A stretch of DNA of 37,798 bases, from assembly GCA_016793045.1 (NCBI GenBank), contig JAEUKZ010000226.1:1-37798 (forward strand). The letters are read 5' to 3'. Position numbers and translations under genes: made by a program. A model generated the notes under the pieces. That model worked only from the letters and a program-made list of their open reading frames with translations, searched no databases and was not told the DNA's origin. This document shows, in pieces, positions 28,298-36,798 of this stretch. Within the stretch, counting starts at the first letter, position 1; each line of letters opens with the position of its first letter. The DNA comes from Alphaproteobacteria bacterium. Lineage in GTDB: Bacteria; Pseudomonadota; Alphaproteobacteria; CACIAM-22H2.

Positions 28298-29380
28298 CTA
28301 TTGCACGACGATTTCGGCGCGCCGGTTCTGCGCCTCTCTCGTCTGATCGGGCGTCGGAACGAGCAGCTGAGACTTGCCCATCGCACGTGCGGTGATCACG
28401 TTCGCCGGGACGCCAAGCTGGACCAGCGCATTGCGCACCGCTTCAGCCCGCCGCTGCGACAGCCCAATGTTGTACTGCACCGAGCCCACCGTGTCGGTGT
28501 GCCCGGTCACGAGCGTCATCCGGGCACTGCCGCCGGCCTGGATGACCTGTGCTGCCTGCTGGATGGTCGCCATCGCATCAGGCCGCAGATTCGAACGGTT
28601 GAAATCGAAGAAGACGATGAAGGCCTGCTGCGCCGGGCGCACCGCTGGCGGCGGCGGCGGGGGCGCCGGCGGGGCAACCGGCGGCGGCAGCGGCGGGGGC
28701 GGCTGCACCTGGCCGAACAGGTAGCGGAAGCCCGCCGTGACCGTGTGCTGGCGGTTCGTGAAGGTGTGGTCGGCGGACGGGCTCAGCGTCGAAGCGAAAC
28801 GCGGCTCCATCGTGCCGAAGAAGCGGTAGTCGACGCCAAGCGCCAGTTCCGGCGTGACCTGGAAGGACAGGCCCGCAATGCCCTGATAGGCAAGCACGAC
28901 GTCGTGGTCGCTGAAGGCGGTCGCCGATGCCGCGCCCGCTCCCGGGGTCGCCCGCACCTGGGCGTAGGAGGCGCCAACGCCGACGCCGATATAGGGCGTC
29001 ACGAATGTGCCGGTGTTGATGTCGTAGATGACATTGCCCATCGCGGTGATGTTCTGCATGCGACCGCTCGCGGGCGCGCCGAACATGTTGTCGATGGAAT
29101 TGCGGCGGTACGCGCCTTCGATTTCGACCCGGAAACCGTTGCCGATGATGTAGCCGACCGTGCCGCCCGCCAGCCAGCCGGTGTCCCAGCTGGCACGGCC
29201 GCCTGAAGGGGTCTGCGGGCCGGAAATGCGCGAGTCGACCGGCCACGTCGCGCCGCCGAATGCCCCAACGTAGAACGATGCCTGCGGCAACGCCGGGGTC
29301 GCGAAGTTGCTCATCTGCGCCATGGCAACGCCGGACGTCGTGCACATCAGCGCTGCGACGATGCCGAGCCGTAGTCTCAT
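28298..29380 (-). CDS. OmpA-family outer-membrane protein (barrel plus peptidoglycan-binding domain)
   Basis: A 360-residue outer-membrane protein. A signal peptide covers about 1-22 (cut after AMA). Residues 30-230 form an OmpA-type beta barrel, with alternating strands ending in aromatic residues such as FYVGAFGGATW and HTVTAGFRYLFG. A Pro-rich hinge (about 232-255) leads to the OmpA C-terminal domain (about 258-360): IVFFDFNRSNLRPDA, TGHTDTVGS, YNIGLSQRRAEAVR and NRRAEIVV. The Asp of HTDT and Arg of NRRA are the residues that grip mDAP in peptidoglycan. ATG 29380 begins the signal peptide; ATG 29392 would add four residues but is too close to its AGGGG. Confidence 0.9.
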   Translation of the reverse strand: MRLRLGIVAALMCTTSGVAMAQMSNFATPALPQASFYVGAFGGATWPVDSRISGPQTPSGGRASWDTGWLAGGTVGYIIGNGFRVEIEGAYRRNSIDNMFGAPASGRMQNITAMGNVIYDINTGTFVTPYIGVGVGASYAQVRATPGAGAASATAFSDHDVVLAYQGIAGLSFQVTPELALGVDYRFFGTMEPRFASTLSPSADHTFTNRQHTVTAGFRYLFGQVQPPPPLPPPVAPPAPPPPPPAVRPAQQAFIVFFDFNRSNLRPDAMATIQQAAQVIQAGGSARMTLVTGHTDTVGSVQYNIGLSQRRAEAVRNALVQLGVPANVITARAMGKSQLLVPTPDQTREAQNRRAEIVVQ

Positions 29381-29636
29381 TGTCGTCCTCATTCCCCTGC
29401 AACCGCCGTCAGACGTACGGCCGCGGTGTAATACTGGTCCCCCGATACTCAGGACCGCAGACGTTTCGCACCCGACCAAGGCGATCGATCGGTTAATGCC
29501 GCCGCGATCCAGAATCGACTGAACTGGCTTTTATCATTTTTCCTCAGCAGCGAAACACGGCAGTTTCACTTTTGCCTCGCCCTGTTGCGGATATGCCACA
29601 GTTCGGTTTCGTTTGTCCGCACCGAAGGATAGCCGG

Positions 29637-30572
29637 TCACGCCGGCGTGTACGGGTGGACTCGCCGCCAATGTTCGGCGATGTCGCGCCGCCGGCAAACC
29701 CACACCCGCTCGTGGCGCTGGATGTAGTCGAGGAACCGTGCCAGCCCCGCGAGACGGCCGGGCCGCCCGACGAGCCGCATATGAAGCCCGATCGACATCA
29801 TCTTCGGCGCAGTTTCGCCTTCCTTGTAAAGGACATCGAACGCATCCTTGAGGTACGTGTAGAAGTCGTCCCCCGTATTGAACCCCTGCGCGGTACCGAA
29901 TTTCATGTCGTTGTTGTCGAGGGTGTAGGGGATGACCAGATGGCCTTTGCCGTTCAAGGTCATCCAATAAGGAAGATCATCGTTATAAGCATCTGAATCA
30001 TAGAGAAATCCGCCGTCTTCGACGACCAGGGCGCGGGTGTTGTCAGAGATCCGCCCGGTATACCAGCCGACCGGCCGCTCGCCGCAGGCGTCCTTGATTG
30101 CGGCGATCGCCAGCTTCATGTGCCGGCGCTCCTCCGCGATCCCCATCTTCTGATAGTCGATCCACCGCCAGCCGTGGCTGGCGATCTCGTGTCCGGCCTC
30201 GGCCATGGCGCGCGCGCCGTCCGGATTGCGCGCGACGGCCATGCCGACGGCATAGCTGGTGAAGTGGAGCCTGCGTTCGCCGAAGGTGCGCAGAATGCGC
30301 CAGAAGCCCGCCCGGCTGCCATATTCGTAGACGGATTCCACCGAATGGTCGCGCCGGCCGATCCGTGGCGTGAGGCCGACGACCTCGTAGAGATATGTCT
30401 CCGACTGCTTGTCGCCGTGGAGGATCGAGTTCTCGCCGCCTTCCTCGAAGTTGAGGACGAAGGAGACGGCGATCTGCGCATCGCCCGGCCAGCGTGGGTG
30501 GGGCGGATTGGCGCCGTAGCCGATCAGGTCGCGTGGATAAGCCGCACGGGGTGATCCGTTCTTCTTTGCCAT
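29637..30572 (-). CDS. puuE: PuuE-type allantoinase (polysaccharide-deacetylase fold)
   Basis: A 311-residue cytoplasmic enzyme of the polysaccharide-deacetylase fold. The N-terminus YPRDLIGYGANPPHPRWPGDAQIAV and NFEEGGENSILHGD are the hallmark of the PuuE group, which opens allantoin to allantoate without a bound metal. EIASHGWRWIDYQ and GWYTGRISDNTR are the later conserved blocks. ATG 30572 precedes YPRDLIGYG by 12 residues; an upstream ATG at 30689 would add 39 residues with no similarity. No other ureide gene is next to it, so its place in purine breakdown here is inferred from sequence alone. It is divergent from the caspase gene. Confidence 0.88.
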   Translation of the reverse strand: MAKKNGSPRAAYPRDLIGYGANPPHPRWPGDAQIAVSFVLNFEEGGENSILHGDKQSETYLYEVVGLTPRIGRRDHSVESVYEYGSRAGFWRILRTFGERRLHFTSYAVGMAVARNPDGARAMAEAGHEIASHGWRWIDYQKMGIAEERRHMKLAIAAIKDACGERPVGWYTGRISDNTRALVVEDGGFLYDSDAYNDDLPYWMTLNGKGHLVIPYTLDNNDMKFGTAQGFNTGDDFYTYLKDAFDVLYKEGETAPKMMSIGLHMRLVGRPGRLAGLARFLDYIQRHERVWVCRRRDIAEHWRRVHPYTPA

Positions 30573-30739
30573 AATGAAGCCGCCTTGTTTGATCTGAATC
30601 GACCTTAGCGGATGCAGCGAAACGGCGCCAAGGGAGCGCCGCCGGCTTGGCCGCCGGGCCGGACATTGGGGGTTGGCGAAGAATGGCACGTTGGCTAGTG
30701 TCTCGGCCGGGTCAATGCCGACGACGGGAGGACGATGCG

Positions 30740-32896
30740 ATGTGGCGGACGATGGTCCGGTTCACCGCGCTCTTGCTGTGCTGCGGCCTCGCGATCTTCG
30801 CGGCTGAACCCGCGGCGGCCCAGAGTGATGCGCCGGTGCCGGAGCGCCGCGTGGCGCTTGTCATCGGCAATTCGGCCTATCAGCACCTGACCCGCCTCGA
30901 CAATCCGCGCAACGACGCGACCGCGATCGCGCGCCAGCTTCGCGAGTCCGGCTTCGAGATCGTCAACGACGGTCCGTATCTCGACCTCGACAAGGCGGGC
31001 ATGGAGCGCGCGCTGCAGGAGTTCGGCCGCCGGCTGCGCGGCGCCAATGTCGGCATGTTCTACTTCGCCGGCCACGGCCTGCAGGTGCGCGCGCGCAACT
31101 TCCTCATGCCGGTGTCCGCCCGCATCGACACCGAGACCGAGATCCCGCTGCAGGCGCTCGATGCGAGCCTGGTGCTCGAACAGCTCGAGGCATCCGGCGC
31201 GCGGCTGTCGATCGTCGTGCTCGATGCCTGCCGCAACAATCCGTTTCCCGGCGGCCAGTTCCGCTCGATGACCGGCGGCCTCGCGCAGATGCAGGCCGCG
31301 ACCGGGACGCTGATCAGCTTTTCGGCGCAGCCCGGCGCGCTCGCGATCGATGGCCCGTCGGAGGGCAACTCGCCATACACCGCGGCGCTGATCGAGAAGA
31401 TGCGCACGCCCGGGCTCAACGTGCTCGACGTCTTCAACGAGACCGGCGTTACCGTCGCCCGGGCGACGTCGCGGCTGCAGCAGCCCTGGGTGTCGAACTC
31501 GCCGATCGAAGGGCGCTTCTTCTTCACGCCGGTGTCGCTGGCGACGCCGCCGCCGACCGCGATGGCGCCGGGCCCGAGCCAGGTCGACCCCGCTGCGCTC
31601 GAACTGACGTTCTGGCAGTCGATCCAGGCAAGCCGCGACCCGGCGGAGTTCGAGGCCTATCTCAACCGCTACCCGCAAGGCAACTTCGCCGGGCTGGCCC
31701 GCGCACGTCTCCAGGCGTTGCGCGCGACCGCGGCAGCGGCTGCAGCACCGCCCGCAGCGCCGACGCCCGCGCCCGCATCGACGCCGCCGCCGGCGCCCGC
31801 CCAGGCCGCGGCACCGCCGCCCGTCCGCCCGTCCGCGACACCGCCAGCGCCGCCGCCGGCACCACCGCCGCAAGTGGCCCAGGCGCCGGCCGCGCGTGCG
31901 ATCGTTCCAGGGCTGTGTCCGCAGACCTTCCAGGGCAACCGCAATGCCGCGGGTCCGCTGGTCTGCCGCTGCACGCAGGAACTCACTTCCGGCACGCGCG
32001 TCGTCTACGGCACCAACATCTACACCGATGATTCCTCGATCTGCCACGCGGCCCTTCATGCCGGCGTGATCAATCGCCAGGGTGGCACGGTGATCGTGCG
32101 CGCGCAGGGCAGCCGGCCGAACTTCCAGGCCTCGACCCGCAACGGTTTCACAACGACGCGCTTCGGCGCCTGGCCCTACAGCTTCTCGGTCGCGCTGGCG
32201 AGCGAGGCCGATCTGCGCGCCGCCGCCGAACCGCCGCGGCCGCCTGCGCCGCCGGCGGCTCCGGCCGCAGCTCCGACGCAACAGGCGGCGCTGCCCGCCA
32301 CACCCAGCGCTCCGCCCGCGACCGCGACGCCGCCCGCCGCAACGTCGCCGCCCGCTCCGCCGGCCGTCGTGACGCCGCCAGCGGGCGCGCCGGCGCCCGC
32401 GGCTCCGGCCGGTCCGAATGCCGGCGTGGTCGCTCCGGCTTCGCCCGGGGCAAAGCCGGGCATCCCGTCGGCGGGCGCCGCCGTGCCGGAGGCGCCTGCG
32501 CCCGGGGCAAGCGGCACGCGCACCGGAACCGCGGTCGCACGTCTGCCGACAGGCAAGAGCGCGTCATTTCCGGTCTGCCCGATCAATCTGGAGCAGATGC
32601 GGTCGCAGACTCCGACGCGCATCGTCTGCTCCTGTACGCCGCAACTGATCGCGTTCAACATCGCGGTGTTCGGAACCGACGTCTACACGGACGACTCCGG
32701 AGTCTGCAACGCGGCGATTCACGCTGGCATCATCGATCGCGATGGCGGCATCGTTGTGGTCACGCCGGGGGCGGGGCGGCAGTCCTTTGCAGGCTCGGCC
32801 CGCAACGGCGTACAGTCGCGCAACTACGGCCGGTGGCAATGGACCTATAGTCTGTCGCGGCCGAGTGCAGCGGATGTCGGTGCATCGGCCCGCTGA
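30740..32896 (+). CDS. Exported caspase-like protease with two LCCL domains
   Basis: A 718-residue exported protein. A signal peptide covers about 1-27. Residues 34-265 form a caspase (peptidase C14/metacaspase) domain with the catalytic pair H112 (FYFAGHGL) and C164 (VLDACRNNPF). Next come a short helical unit (about 283-328, FWQSIQASRDPAEFEAYLNR) and a Pro/Ala-rich linker. LCCL domain 1 spans 393-485 (C393, C409, C411, C435; GTNIYTDDSSICHAALHAGV). After a second Pro/Ala linker, LCCL domain 2 spans 613-705 (C613, C630, C632, C656; GTDVYTDDSGVCNAAIHAGI). Four cysteines per LCCL is the usual number. Perfect GGGAGG eight bases upstream fixes ATG 30740. potF follows after 35 bases. Substrate and partner unknown. 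Confidence 0.9.
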   Translation: MWRTMVRFTALLLCCGLAIFAAEPAAAQSDAPVPERRVALVIGNSAYQHLTRLDNPRNDATAIARQLRESGFEIVNDGPYLDLDKAGMERALQEFGRRLRGANVGMFYFAGHGLQVRARNFLMPVSARIDTETEIPLQALDASLVLEQLEASGARLSIVVLDACRNNPFPGGQFRSMTGGLAQMQAATGTLISFSAQPGALAIDGPSEGNSPYTAALIEKMRTPGLNVLDVFNETGVTVARATSRLQQPWVSNSPIEGRFFFTPVSLATPPPTAMAPGPSQVDPAALELTFWQSIQASRDPAEFEAYLNRYPQGNFAGLARARLQALRATAAAAAAPPAAPTPAPASTPPPAPAQAAAPPPVRPSATPPAPPPAPPPQVAQAPAARAIVPGLCPQTFQGNRNAAGPLVCRCTQELTSGTRVVYGTNIYTDDSSICHAALHAGVINRQGGTVIVRAQGSRPNFQASTRNGFTTTRFGAWPYSFSVALASEADLRAAAEPPRPPAPPAAPAAAPTQQAALPATPSAPPATATPPAATSPPAPPAVVTPPAGAPAPAAPAGPNAGVVAPASPGAKPGIPSAGAAVPEAPAPGASGTRTGTAVARLPTGKSASFPVCPINLEQMRSQTPTRIVCSCTPQLIAFNIAVFGTDVYTDDSGVCNAAIHAGIIDRDGGIVVVTPGAGRQSFAGSARNGVQSRNYGRWQWTYSLSRPSAADVGASAR

Positions 32897-32931: not shown

Positions 32932-34032
32932 ATGCGGCGATGGATCGGGTTGGCGGCGTTGGCGCTCGCGCTGCTCGCGGCGCAGCTGCCGGCGGCGGCG
33001 CAGCAGCAGACGCTCGCGATCTTCAACTGGACGGACTACATCGCGCCCGAGACGCTGCAGCGCTTCGAGGCCGAGACCGGCATCCGCGTCACCTACGACA
33101 CCTACGATTCGAACGAGACGCTGGATGCGCGGCTGCGCGCCGGGCGCAGCGGCTTCGACCTCGTGGTGCCGAGCGCCTCGCCCTTCCTCGCGCAGCAGAT
33201 CCCCGCCGGGCTCTACCAGCCGCTCGACCGCAGCAAGATCCCGAACTGGCGAAACCTCGACCCGATCATCATGCGCGGGCTCGAACGCTACGACCCCGGC
33301 AATCGCCACGCCGTGCCGTGGATGTGGGGTACGACGGGCATCGGCTACAACGTCGCGCGCGTGCGCGCGATCATGCCCGACGCGCCGCTCAACTCGCTGC
33401 GCATGTTCTTCGATGCCCAGGTGGTGGCGCGCTTCCGCGGCTGCGGCGTCCAGTTCGTCGATTCGTCGACCGACGGCATTCCGGCGGCCCTCGCGTTCCT
33501 CGGCCTCAATCCCGACAGCAAGGCGGGGGCCGACCTCAACCGCGCCGTCGAGCTGTTCGCGCGCATCCGCCCGAACATCAGGCGCTTCCATTCCTCCGAA
33601 TACATCAACGATCTCGCCAACGGCGACGCCTGCCTCGCGTTCGGCTATTCCGGCGACATCATCCAGGCGGCGCGGCGCGCGCGCGAGGCGGGCCGCGGCG
33701 TCGAGATCGGCTATGCGATCCCGACCGTCGAGGGCGCGCTGACCTCGACCGACACCTGGGTGATCCCGGTCGGCGCGCGCAACGTCGAGGCGGCGCATCG
33801 CTTCATCGACTTCGTCCTGCGGCCGGAGATCGCGGCGATGAACACCAACTTCATCGGCTACGCCAATGCCGTGCCCAGCTCGCTGCCGATGGTCGACGCG
33901 GCGATCCGCAACAACCCGGGCATCTATCCGCCCGACGAGGTGCGCCGGCGCCTGTATCTTATCTCTCCGGCGGACCGCAGCTACGACCGCCTGCGCACCC
34001 GCGCCTGGACCCGCATCACGACGGGACGATGA
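32932..34032 (+). CDS. potF: Polyamine ABC transporter, periplasmic binding protein (PotF-like)
   Basis: A 366-residue solute-binding protein of the PotD/PotF family. A signal peptide covers about 1-24 (cut after AAA). The domain starts with LAIFNWTDYIAPETLQRFEAETGIRVTYDTYDSNE, the classical polyamine-receptor opening. YDLVVPSASPFLAQQI-like region, WMWGTTGIGYN and CLAFGYSGDI follow, the last two lining the polyamine site. It resembles PotF (putrescine) more than PotD by length and the WMWGTTGIGYN form, but specificity is inferred. Its stop overlaps potG as ATGA; a run of G's lies before ATG 32932. Confidence 0.88.
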   Translation: MRRWIGLAALALALLAAQLPAAAQQQTLAIFNWTDYIAPETLQRFEAETGIRVTYDTYDSNETLDARLRAGRSGFDLVVPSASPFLAQQIPAGLYQPLDRSKIPNWRNLDPIIMRGLERYDPGNRHAVPWMWGTTGIGYNVARVRAIMPDAPLNSLRMFFDAQVVARFRGCGVQFVDSSTDGIPAALAFLGLNPDSKAGADLNRAVELFARIRPNIRRFHSSEYINDLANGDACLAFGYSGDIIQAARRAREAGRGVEIGYAIPTVEGALTSTDTWVIPVGARNVEAAHRFIDFVLRPEIAAMNTNFIGYANAVPSSLPMVDAAIRNNPGIYPPDEVRRRLYLISPADRSYDRLRTRAWTRITTGR

Positions 34033-35102
34033 CCGCCGGGCCCGTCCTGCGGGTCGCCACGCTCGGCAAATCCTTCGGCGGCATCGCGGCGGTCGACGGC
34101 GTCGGCTTCGAGGTCGAGGCGGGGGAGATCTTCGCGCTGCTCGGGCCCTCGGGCTGCGGAAAGACCACGCTGCTGCGGCTGATCGCCGGACTCGAGGTCC
34201 CAGATTCCGGGACGATCGCGATCGACGGCGAGGACATGACCGGCGTGCCGGCGTGGCGCCGCCCGGTGAACACCGTGTTCCAGTCCTACGCACTGTTTCC
34301 GCACATGACCGTGGCGCAGAACATCGCCTTCGGCTTGCGCCAGGACGGCCTCGCGCGCGCCGAGATCGGCCGCCGCGTCGACGAGATGGTAGCGCTGGTG
34401 CAGCTCGGCGGCCTCGAGCGGCGGCGTCCTGACCAGCTCTCGGGCGGCCAGCGCCAGCGCGTTGCGCTCGCGCGCAGTCTCGCCAAGCGCCCGAAGCTGC
34501 TGCTGCTCGACGAGCCGCTCGCCGCCCTCGACCGCAAGCTGCGCGAACAGACGCGCGGCGAACTGGTACGGATCCAGGCGCATACCGGCACCGCCTTCAT
34601 CCTGGTGACGCACGACCAGGAGGAGGCGCTGGCACTGGCGCGACGCGTCGCCGTGATGCGCGCGGGGCGGATCGAACAGCTTGGCCCCCCGCGGGCGGTC
34701 TACGACCGGCCGGCCTCGCGCTACGTCGCCGATTTCATCGGCCGGGTGAACCTGCTCGAAGGCACGCTGGTGGATGCCGGCGCGCCGGCGGCGGTGCGCT
34801 GCGGCGCGCTCGACATCGTGCTGCGGGCCCGCGACGGCGGCGGCGCGGCGGCCGGCGCCGCGGTCTGGCTCGCGGTGCGGCCGGAGCATGTCGCGCTCGA
34901 CCCGCACGGCGCGGGCGAGAACCGAATGAGCGGCACGGTCGTCGCGTCATCCTTCCTGGGTGAAAGCGTGCTGGTCGACGTCGCTGTCGGCGGCGGCGCG
35001 ACGATCCGCGCGCTCGTGCCGGCACGGCATGCGGTGCCCGCGCCGGGCGGAGCGGTCGCGCTCGGCTTTGCCGCCGCGGCGGTTTCGGTGCTGACCCGAT
35101 GA
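34029..35102 (+). CDS. potG: Polyamine ABC transporter ATPase (PotG-like)
   Basis: A 357-residue ATPase subunit. Nucleotide domain about 7-240: Walker A GPSGCGKTT, Q-loop VFQSYALFPHMTVAQN, signature LSGGQRQR, Walker B LLLLDEPLAALD and H-loop VTHDQEEALA. A C-terminal TOBE-type regulatory domain (about 245-357) is typical of the PotA/PotG/FbpC class. The start is ATG 34029, overlapping the potF stop by four bases; its own stop overlaps potH by four bases. It energises PotHI. Confidence 0.91.
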   Translation: MTAGPVLRVATLGKSFGGIAAVDGVGFEVEAGEIFALLGPSGCGKTTLLRLIAGLEVPDSGTIAIDGEDMTGVPAWRRPVNTVFQSYALFPHMTVAQNIAFGLRQDGLARAEIGRRVDEMVALVQLGGLERRRPDQLSGGQRQRVALARSLAKRPKLLLLDEPLAALDRKLREQTRGELVRIQAHTGTAFILVTHDQEEALALARRVAVMRAGRIEQLGPPRAVYDRPASRYVADFIGRVNLLEGTLVDAGAPAAVRCGALDIVLRARDGGGAAAGAAVWLAVRPEHVALDPHGAGENRMSGTVVASSFLGESVLVDVAVGGGATIRALVPARHAVPAPGGAVALGFAAAAVSVLTR

Positions 35103-36001
35103 ATGCGCCGCTGCGTACCGACGCGACGTGGCGGGCGCTGGTGCTCGGTCTCCCATGGCTGTGGCTGCTGCTGCTCGGCTTGGCGCCGCTCGGGCTCGCG
35201 GTGGCGATCAGCTTCGGCACCGCGAGCGAAGGGGCGCCGCCCTATGACCCGCCGCTTGCCTGGTCCGCGGACGGGCTGCGTGTGGCGCCGTCGCTCGAGT
35301 CCTATGCGCTCGTCGTCGGAGACGACCTCTATGTCGTCGCGTTCTTCAACTCGCTTCGCGTCGCCGGCCTGGCAACGCTCCTCTGCCTCGCCATCGGCTA
35401 TCCGATGGCGCTGGCGATCGCTCGCGCGCCGGCGCCGCGGCGGCCGCTGCTGCTGCTCTTCGTCATGTTGCCGTTCTGGACGTCGTTCCTGGTGCGCGTC
35501 TACGCCTGGACGACGCTGCTGCGGCCGACGGGTATCATCAACACCGCGCTGCTCGCCGCGGGTGCGATCGACGCGCCGCTCGAGCTCTTCGCCAGCGAGC
35601 CGGCGATGCTGATCGGCATCGTCTATTCGTACCTGCCGTTCATGGTGCTGCCGCTCGCGCTGTCGATCGAGCGCGTCGACCCAGACGTTCTCGCCGCCGC
35701 GGCCGATCTCGGCGCACGGCCGCGCACCGTGCTGCTGCGCATCCTCGTGCCGCTGACCTGGCCGGGCATCGTCGCCGGATCGGCGCTCGTCTTCGTGCCG
35801 GCGGCGGGGGAATTCGTCATCCCCGACCTGCTCGGCCCGTCCGACACGCCGATGATCGGCCGCATCCTCTGGAACGAGTTCTTCGCCAACCGCGACTGGC
35901 CGGCGGCGTCGATGATCGCGGTGCTGCTGCTCGTCGTTCTCGTGCTGCCGGTTGCGGCGATCCAGCGCGCCGCCGCGCGGGCGGAGCGCGGCGTGCGATG
36001 A
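35099..36001 (+). CDS. potH: Polyamine ABC transporter permease (PotH-like)
   Basis: A 300-residue inner-membrane permease with six predicted helices. Near the N-terminus are PWLWLLLLGLAPLGLAVAISF and a periplasmic loop. The EAA-type loop is DPDVLAAAADLGARPRTVLLRILVPLTWPGIVAG, which contacts the ATPase, and FVIPDLLGPSDTPMIGRILWNEFFANRDWPAASM is a PotB/PotH hallmark. ATG 35099 overlaps the potG stop (ATGA), and its stop overlaps the potI start (ATGA). Confidence 0.92.
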   Translation: MNAPLRTDATWRALVLGLPWLWLLLLGLAPLGLAVAISFGTASEGAPPYDPPLAWSADGLRVAPSLESYALVVGDDLYVVAFFNSLRVAGLATLLCLAIGYPMALAIARAPAPRRPLLLLFVMLPFWTSFLVRVYAWTTLLRPTGIINTALLAAGAIDAPLELFASEPAMLIGIVYSYLPFMVLPLALSIERVDPDVLAAAADLGARPRTVLLRILVPLTWPGIVAGSALVFVPAAGEFVIPDLLGPSDTPMIGRILWNEFFANRDWPAASMIAVLLLVVLVLPVAAIQRAAARAERGVR

Positions 36002-36798
36002 CGCGCGGCGAGCGCTTCGTGCTGCCGGCCGCGCTCGGCGCCGGCTACTTCTTTCTCTACCTGCCGCTGGCGATCGTCATCGTCTATTCGTTCAACGAGT
36101 CTCGGCTGGTCACGGTATGGTCCGGCCTGTCCGCACGCTGGTACGGCGAGCTGCTGGCCAACGACCGCATTCTCGATGCCGCAGGGCTGTCGCTCGGCGT
36201 CGGGCTCTGCGCAGCGACACTGGCGACGGTGCTTGGCACGCTCGCCGGCGTCGCGATGGCGCGCTTCGGCCGCTTCCGCGCGCGCTTCCTCTTCGCCGTG
36301 CTGCTCGCCGCGCCGCTGGTGATGCCGGAGGTCGTGACCGGTCTCACGCTGCTGCTGATGTTCGTCACCCTCGAGCAGGTGGTCGGCTGGCCCGACGGCC
36401 GCGGCTTCGCGACCCTTGTTCTCGCGCATGCGAGCTTCGGCCTGTCCTACGTCGCCGTCATCGTCCAGGCGCGGATGGCGATGCTCGATCCGGCCCTCGA
36501 GGAGGCCGCGGCCGATCTCGGGGCGCCGCCGGCGCGGGTCTTCCGTGCGGTGACTCTGCCGCTGCTGCTGCCCGCCGCAGCGGCAGGCTGGCTGCTCGCG
36601 TTCACGCTGTCGCTCGACGACCTTGTGATCGCGAGCTTCACGTCGGGGCCCGGCGCGACGACGCTGCCGATGTACGTGTTCGCGAGCGTGCGCCTCGGCG
36701 TCTCGCCGCAGGTCAACGCGCTCGGCACCGTGCTGGTCGGTTTCGCGGCGACGCTCGGCCTCGTCGCCTGGGCGATCTGGCGGCGGACAGCGCGATAG
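35998..36798 (+). CDS. potI: Polyamine ABC transporter permease (PotI-like)
   Basis: A 266-residue permease, partner of PotH. It has YLPLAIVIVYSFNESRLVTVWSGLSARWYGELLAND at the N-terminus, the usual PotC/PotI opening, then six helices and the EAA loop DPALEEAAADLGAPPARVFRAVTLPLLLPA. TLSLDDLVIASFTSGPGATTLPMYVFASVR is the family hallmark near the C-terminus. It completes the potFGHI order. The stop is 15 bases from the convergent dehydrogenase gene. Confidence 0.92.
   Translation: MTRGERFVLPAALGAGYFFLYLPLAIVIVYSFNESRLVTVWSGLSARWYGELLANDRILDAAGLSLGVGLCAATLATVLGTLAGVAMARFGRFRARFLFAVLLAAPLVMPEVVTGLTLLLMFVTLEQVVGWPDGRGFATLVLAHASFGLSYVAVIVQARMAMLDPALEEAAADLGAPPARVFRAVTLPLLLPAAAAGWLLAFTLSLDDLVIASFTSGPGATTLPMYVFASVRLGVSPQVNALGTVLVGFAATLGLVAWAIWRRTAR

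Follow-up and report, generated by a model that had tools for sequence, protein, structure and literature searches.

An apparently exported caspase-family protease carrying two LCCL domains in an alphaproteobacterial genome

Bacterial relatives of caspases are mostly discussed as cytoplasmic death or defence enzymes, and many of them carry export signals. In a stretch of 37,798 nucleotides from an alphaproteobacterial genome (contig JAEUKZ010000226.1, hereafter the window), one gene encodes a peptidase of this kind (family C14) joined to two copies of LCCL, a small binding module mainly familiar from immune proteins of animals. The locus raises the question of where such a protease would act and what its LCCL domains would contribute.

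The gene, its putative export signal and its catalytic domain

The gene (30740-32896, + strand, as are all its features given below) is supported by Pfam profiles and frame-specific third-position GC, and encodes 718 amino acids in a frame uninterrupted from the ATG at 30740 to 32896, with a Shine-Dalgarno-like GGGAGG (30726-30731) 8 nt before the start codon. Third-position GC is coding-like in its own frame only (0.85 vs 0.70 and 0.61), and this holds through all domains. Given the good ribosome-binding site and this frame-specific composition, 30740-32896 is taken as a genuine, unbroken gene, and the shadow is the antisense open reading frame of 528 aa. The source assembly is fragmented (462 contigs), so that a chimera or a decayed gene could be suspected, but such an artefact is exceedingly improbable: the frame is single and unbroken with coding-like composition throughout, the catalytic residues are all intact, and the C14 plus LCCL architecture recurs in another assembly, which belongs to a different family (locus L015, identical to L100).

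Residues 1-28 read MWRTMVRFT-ALLLCCGLAIFAA-EPAAA followed by Q28. By inspection, residues 1-27 (30740-30820) present the n, h and c regions of an export signal, with a basic start, an uncharged hydrophobic core and AAA before Q28, lack a lipobox, and appear to be a Sec type-I signal sequence that would be cleaved after AAA27. Outside the LCCL domains, cysteines are found at positions 14 and 15, within the signal sequence, and at the catalytic position 164; the mature chain holds nine in total, none of them stray, which fits a protein destined for an oxidising compartment and lends independent support to export. A crude export-signal test was positive in 71 of 89 LCCL-encoding frames from public genomes vs 71 of 347 other genes at the same loci. 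Judged on its sequence, the C14-LCCL protein appears to be exported from the cytoplasm. The export predicted in the initial annotation is supported by the signal sequence and the cysteine pattern, and its preference for action outside the cytoplasm over cytoplasmic cell death is in turn favoured by this predicted export.

The Peptidase_C14 profile was matched at residues 36-259 (30845-31516) with 115 bits against a Pfam cut-off of 21.4 (E 5.4e-33), and an AlphaFold2 model of the domain, built with 16 homologues, reached a pLDDT of 86.7. The best solved match to this model was the MALT1 paracaspase (VIA Z 26.8, rmsd 2.2 over 206 residues), after which came animal caspases with Z over 20. The His/Cys dyad, initially described as complete, was found in alignment with the family at the very residue numbers proposed, H112 (31073-31075) lying in AGHG and C164 (31229-31231) in LDACRNN. 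They align with MALT1 H415 and C464, a numbering confirmed by residue count (D365-H415 = 50, H415-C464 = 49). With the profile, the modelled caspase fold and the dyad, the protein is assigned to peptidase family C14 as a predicted protease; with the EACC1-associated caspase model NF047832 it scores 72.7 bits, below the curated cut-off of 140.

Three acidic residues, D59 (30914-30916), D162 (31223-31225) and D204 (31349-31351), align with MALT1 D365, D462 and E500 and are invariant across 17 aligned C14 sequences. MALT1 D365 is presumably a residue of the S1 pocket receiving P1 Arg. The P1 Arg of MALT1 is anchored by D462 and E500 (PMC4626109), E500 being also named in PMC8283722. At the sequence level, the acidic S1 pocket of the paracaspase/orthocaspase type is present and the basic S1 pocket of Asp-specific metazoan caspases is absent. 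Because the S1-pocket acids of MALT1 are kept as D59, D162 and D204, cleavage after Arg or Lys, and not after Asp, is predicted; from the Arg/Lys or Asp substrates initially envisaged, the pocket alignment would retain the basic residues and discard Asp. MALT1, the nearest solved fold to this C14 domain and alike in its S1 acids, is nevertheless a cytoplasmic animal signalling protein with death and Ig domains.

The LCCL tail and its exported caspase relatives

The catalytic domain is followed by a helical FW...EYL.RYP.G.FA.LAR element common to exported alphaproteobacterial caspases (residues 285-330; 31592-31729), then by Pro/Ala linker 1 (31730-31909), LCCL1 (residues 391-486; 31910-32197), Pro/Ala linker 2 of about 120 aa (32198-32566) and LCCL2 (residues 610-707; 32567-32860). 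That Pro/Ala linkers join C14 to the LCCL domains was borne out by composition, residues 330-404 being 65% and residues 495-615 59% Pro+Ala. LCCL (PF03815) was matched twice, with 143 bits against a Pfam cut-off of 22.6 (E 3.5e-42), the individual stretches scoring 75.4 and 76 bits, and each contains the four cysteines ascribed to it in the initial annotation (393/409/411/435 in LCCL1, 613/630/632/656 in LCCL2); those of LCCL2 (C4, C21, C23 and C47 in domain numbering) are conserved across bacterial LCCL. The AlphaFold2 model, which covers LCCL2 and was made with 35 bacterial LCCL sequences, had a mean pLDDT of 96.8 and a pTM of 0.88, and its best solved match was the cochlin LCCL 1jbi (TM 0.82, VIA Z 13.9, rmsd 2.0 over 95 residues, 26% identity). 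The concern that these regions might fail to fold as LCCL was thereby eased, since LCCL2 is predicted to fold as the cochlin domain and LCCL1 is assigned by profile and alignment. A weak Rxt3 match to this part of the protein reflects the fold that Rxt3 and LCCL have in common.

Within the family of this caspase, exported C14 proteins that combine the FW..EYL..P.G.FA.LAR element with a Pro/Ala tail are frequent. The same genome encodes an exported paralogue of the same layout (contig C30, L209, minus strand), its tail showing by eye two DUF4189-like units. The Azospirillum caspases AZL_RS22875 and AZOLI_RS20305, composed of C14 and two DUF4189 matches, come closest in their catalytic domain among the sequences compared (53-54% over the columns of the tree, clade 99/99) and have the same FW element, Pro/Ala linker and pair of Cys-bearing tail units; these units, however, are DUF4189-like and not LCCL, and the genes are plasmid-borne. 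Other tails on related caspases are SH3 or unnamed. Bradyrhizobium A5ECX2 has a signal peptide, C14 and two tandem C-terminal YARHG domains (PMC3355149); compared by this published description, it resembles the apparently exported window protein as an alphaproteobacterial C14 protease sent out of the cytoplasm whose C-terminal module pair is thought to bind the cell wall, but helical YARHG replaces LCCL. In a survey of 671 prokaryotic caspase homologues, in which LCCL is unmentioned, many linked domains and N-terminal helices (possible signal peptides) pointed to an extracellular location (PMC3501461), and a literature search returned no paper on a caspase with LCCL. Exported caspases with tandem C-terminal modules are thus already known in Alphaproteobacteria from A5ECX2, the paralogue and Azospirillum, and the framing in the initial annotation needs adjusting to this; it is the LCCL tail that is new on such a chassis. 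Similar C14 homologues are also encoded on 21 IMG/VR contigs classed as viral (L132-L152), some of 30-65 kb, which are prophage cargo or misclassified host DNA.

Distribution of LCCL and origin of the pairing

Scanning one genome for each bacterial or archaeal species with a single pattern gave 289 LCCL-encoding stretches, the best 80 of which fall in Pseudomonadota, Myxococcota, Cyanobacteriota, Chloroflexota, Acidobacteriota, Actinomycetota and others. In the 79 proteins nearest the query, taken from these best 80, LCCL stands beside M57 (16/79), OmpA (6/79), C14 (2/79), S-layer homology (1/79) and TIR (1/79), the M57 and OmpA counts not being independent events as many of the 79 belong to related myxobacteria and Acetobacterales. 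The two C14 proteins are the window gene and one other, and further fusions may exist beyond the best 80. Although the literature presents LCCL as a domain of animals and apicomplexans, it is a widespread exported module in bacteria, joined repeatedly to proteases and envelope anchors and in one case to TIR; with 289 stretches in species genomes, the initial impression of an exotic domain is not supported as it stands.

Several of these proteins deserve description in their own right. A Myxococcaceae gene (L036:4912-6267) and similar loci encode an M57 metalloprotease that starts like a lipoprotein and ends in two LCCL domains, resembling the window protein as an apparently exported protease with an LCCL pair but differing in an unrelated metalloprotease domain and in the absence of Pro/Ala linkers. 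In Neoroseomonas soli (L090:2516-3628) two LCCL domains are joined to an OmpA peptidoglycan-binding domain, and in a Nitriliruptoraceae metagenome-assembled genome (L098:5049-6410) LCCL is joined to three S-layer homology domains, both of which hint at an envelope location. Aromatoleum toluolicum (NZ_WTVS01000149.1, L099:3011-4039) encodes a predicted transmembrane protein that begins with a TIR domain and continues through a single hydrophobic helix and a Pro/Ala linker to LCCL. This is the layout of a Toll receptor, with LCCL facing outward; a literature search returned no paper that treats LCCL and a TIR domain together in a bacterial transmembrane protein.

LCCL is sparse in the class of the window genome, occurring in 10 of 385 sampled genomes, two of which, the window genome included, have it as a C14 fusion. 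The window genome is the only LCCL carrier among 23 genomes of its family/order. Within the phylum, 7 of 398 genomes carry LCCL, again counting the window genome, and the others have it in frames of 229-438 aa, mostly too short for the C14-LCCL architecture. No further C14-LCCL protein was seen in the frames read from 61 genomes of the order of G354, and the search for more copies also took in four genomes of the other carrier's order. As for a mobile-element origin of the combination, it is unsupported, LCCL being matched in no phage record and in three plasmids.

The other C14-LCCL protein, from the Rhodospirillales genome MAG-111 (L015), resembles the window protein in its apparent export signal, C14, FW element, linker and LCCL, but has a single LCCL and a catalytic domain of another lineage. 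In the C14 tree, the window caspase groups with Azospirillum (99/99) and the MAG-111 caspase with other family members (93/94). Forcing both fusions together was rejected (AU p 9.5e-5), in a tree where both fusion rows have longish branches, from which the longest other rows had been dropped and whose grouping was tested after a first tree had been seen. In the LCCL tree, a shared origin of LCCL in the two fusions gave an AU p of 0.25 over 96 columns, LCCL being short. Two fusions in different caspase lineages imply that the pairing probably arose twice, the simplest reading of the trees being two separate LCCL acquisitions. Such recurrence speaks for a pairing that is of use, though an older single fusion followed by exchange of the catalytic domain is possible. 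The combination of C14 and LCCL is rare and seems to have at least two origins in bacteria.

A small exported protein consisting of two LCCL domains only is encoded elsewhere in the same genome (contig C440:72-761, L211). Its role as donor of the window LCCL domains is not supported, since the window pair group together (96/94) and the C440 pair likewise (92/90). The host falls in the same class as the Rhodospirillales genome (G312) that carries L100, and is an alphaproteobacterium distantly related to Azospirillum, which provides the closest match to its rRNA region among plasmid-borne copies (about 87%).

Proposed working, alternatives and gene neighbourhood

With moderate confidence, and drawing on sequence, models and analogy, we favour an exported paracaspase-like Cys protease that would cleave after Arg/Lys and be positioned at the envelope or surface by its two LCCL binding modules. 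The protein would be exported by Sec to the periplasm or beyond; its C14 domain, MALT1-like in predicted fold, would cleave after Arg/Lys with H112/C164, a specificity suggested by D59/D162/D204; the two LCCL domains, each with disulphides and held on a long, flexible Pro/Ala tether, would bind an envelope or surface component at two points; and the tethered protease would cut envelope or extracellular proteins near the LCCL ligand. This ligand would most likely be a glycan or of lipopolysaccharide type, as suggested by bacterial LCCL-OmpA and LCCL-S-layer fusions and by animal LCCL biology, the latter transferred at 26-27% identity. Among LCCL proteins, interaction with bacteria or LPS is documented for cochlin and CRISPLD2 (PMC10892792). 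The tail probably sets the site of action and not the chemistry, because in relatives the same catalytic chassis is combined with tandem modules of other types (DUF4189-like, YARHG). The wall or surface sensing put forward in the initial annotation is plausible, and the whole suggests a surface-anchored or surface-switched protease rather than an intracellular suicide enzyme.

The main rival to such simple targeting is a switch resembling horseshoe-crab factor C, whereby the LCCL domains would be sensors holding a latent caspase under control until a ligand from foreign or damaged envelope activates it. We regard it as rather unlikely, in spite of the independent pairing of LCCL with proteases and of factor C being a protease with LCCL that answers endotoxin (PMC10892792). 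The Aromatoleum TIR protein, whose LCCL is predicted to face outward from the membrane, is receptor-like in layout, and the linkers are long enough for LCCL to fold back onto the catalytic domain; yet a zymogen feature was not identified and Pro/Ala linkers of 60-120 residues transmit conformational change poorly. Moreover, the LPS-binding part of factor C probably lies outside LCCL. Both LCCL founders have their limits as models: Limulus factor C is likewise protease-joined but is an animal serine protease where the window protein has C14, and cochlin is an animal protein without a protease. Carried to its full extent, the idea would make the protein a bacterial counterpart of the endotoxin sensor, an exported Arg/Lys protease staying inactive until its paired LCCL domains bind LPS or another surface glycan on damaged cells or on neighbours. 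Such a device would have evolved separately two or more times among Alphaproteobacteria and once more, with metalloproteases, among myxobacteria; this is speculative and we doubt that it holds.

Self-release is quite improbable. The protease would cut its own linkers after Arg/Lys and free LCCL units as effectors in the manner of cochlin, whose LCCL is freed by proteolysis and then binds bacteria, with akhirin as a further precedent (PMC10892792, PMC12839204). The linkers contain few basic residues, many of them near domain edges (R363, R386, R493, R500, K572, R594, R601, K606), but R363, R500 and K572 precede Pro or a Pro-like context and may resist cleavage, and free LCCL is already supplied by the small two-LCCL protein of contig C440. 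Very improbable, finally, is a caspase of the classical cell-death type that acts in the cytoplasm and uses LCCL for interactions inside the cell, like fungal Rxt3. Rxt3 of nuclear SIN3/HDAC complexes shares the LCCL fold, which therefore need not mean an extracellular location; against such a reading stand the signal sequence, the cysteine pattern, the export signals on most bacterial LCCL proteins, the EACC1-type score (72.7 vs 140) and the scanned neighbouring genes, among which no defence-type partner (NACHT, STAND) was seen. A caspase tail with known binding biology offers a direct handle on the ligand and on the protease with vs without it, and the pairing, rare and probably convergent, is directly testable, both of its halves being established bacterial modules.

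In the neighbourhood, ABC transporter genes (solute-binding protein, ATPase, two permeases; 32932-36798, +) begin 35 bp downstream of the caspase gene. They are not conserved beside related caspases, where one distant ATPase match was the only one, and are therefore probably not part of the system. A polysaccharide deacetylase-family gene (29637-30689, -), divergent from the caspase gene, was set aside as a partner for its absence beside related caspases in the family. Also near the caspase gene is a gene for an outer-membrane beta-barrel protein with an OmpA C-terminal domain (28298-29479, -), and the window further encodes an L,D-transpeptidase with scaffold domain (YkuD, PF20142; 12198-14021, -).
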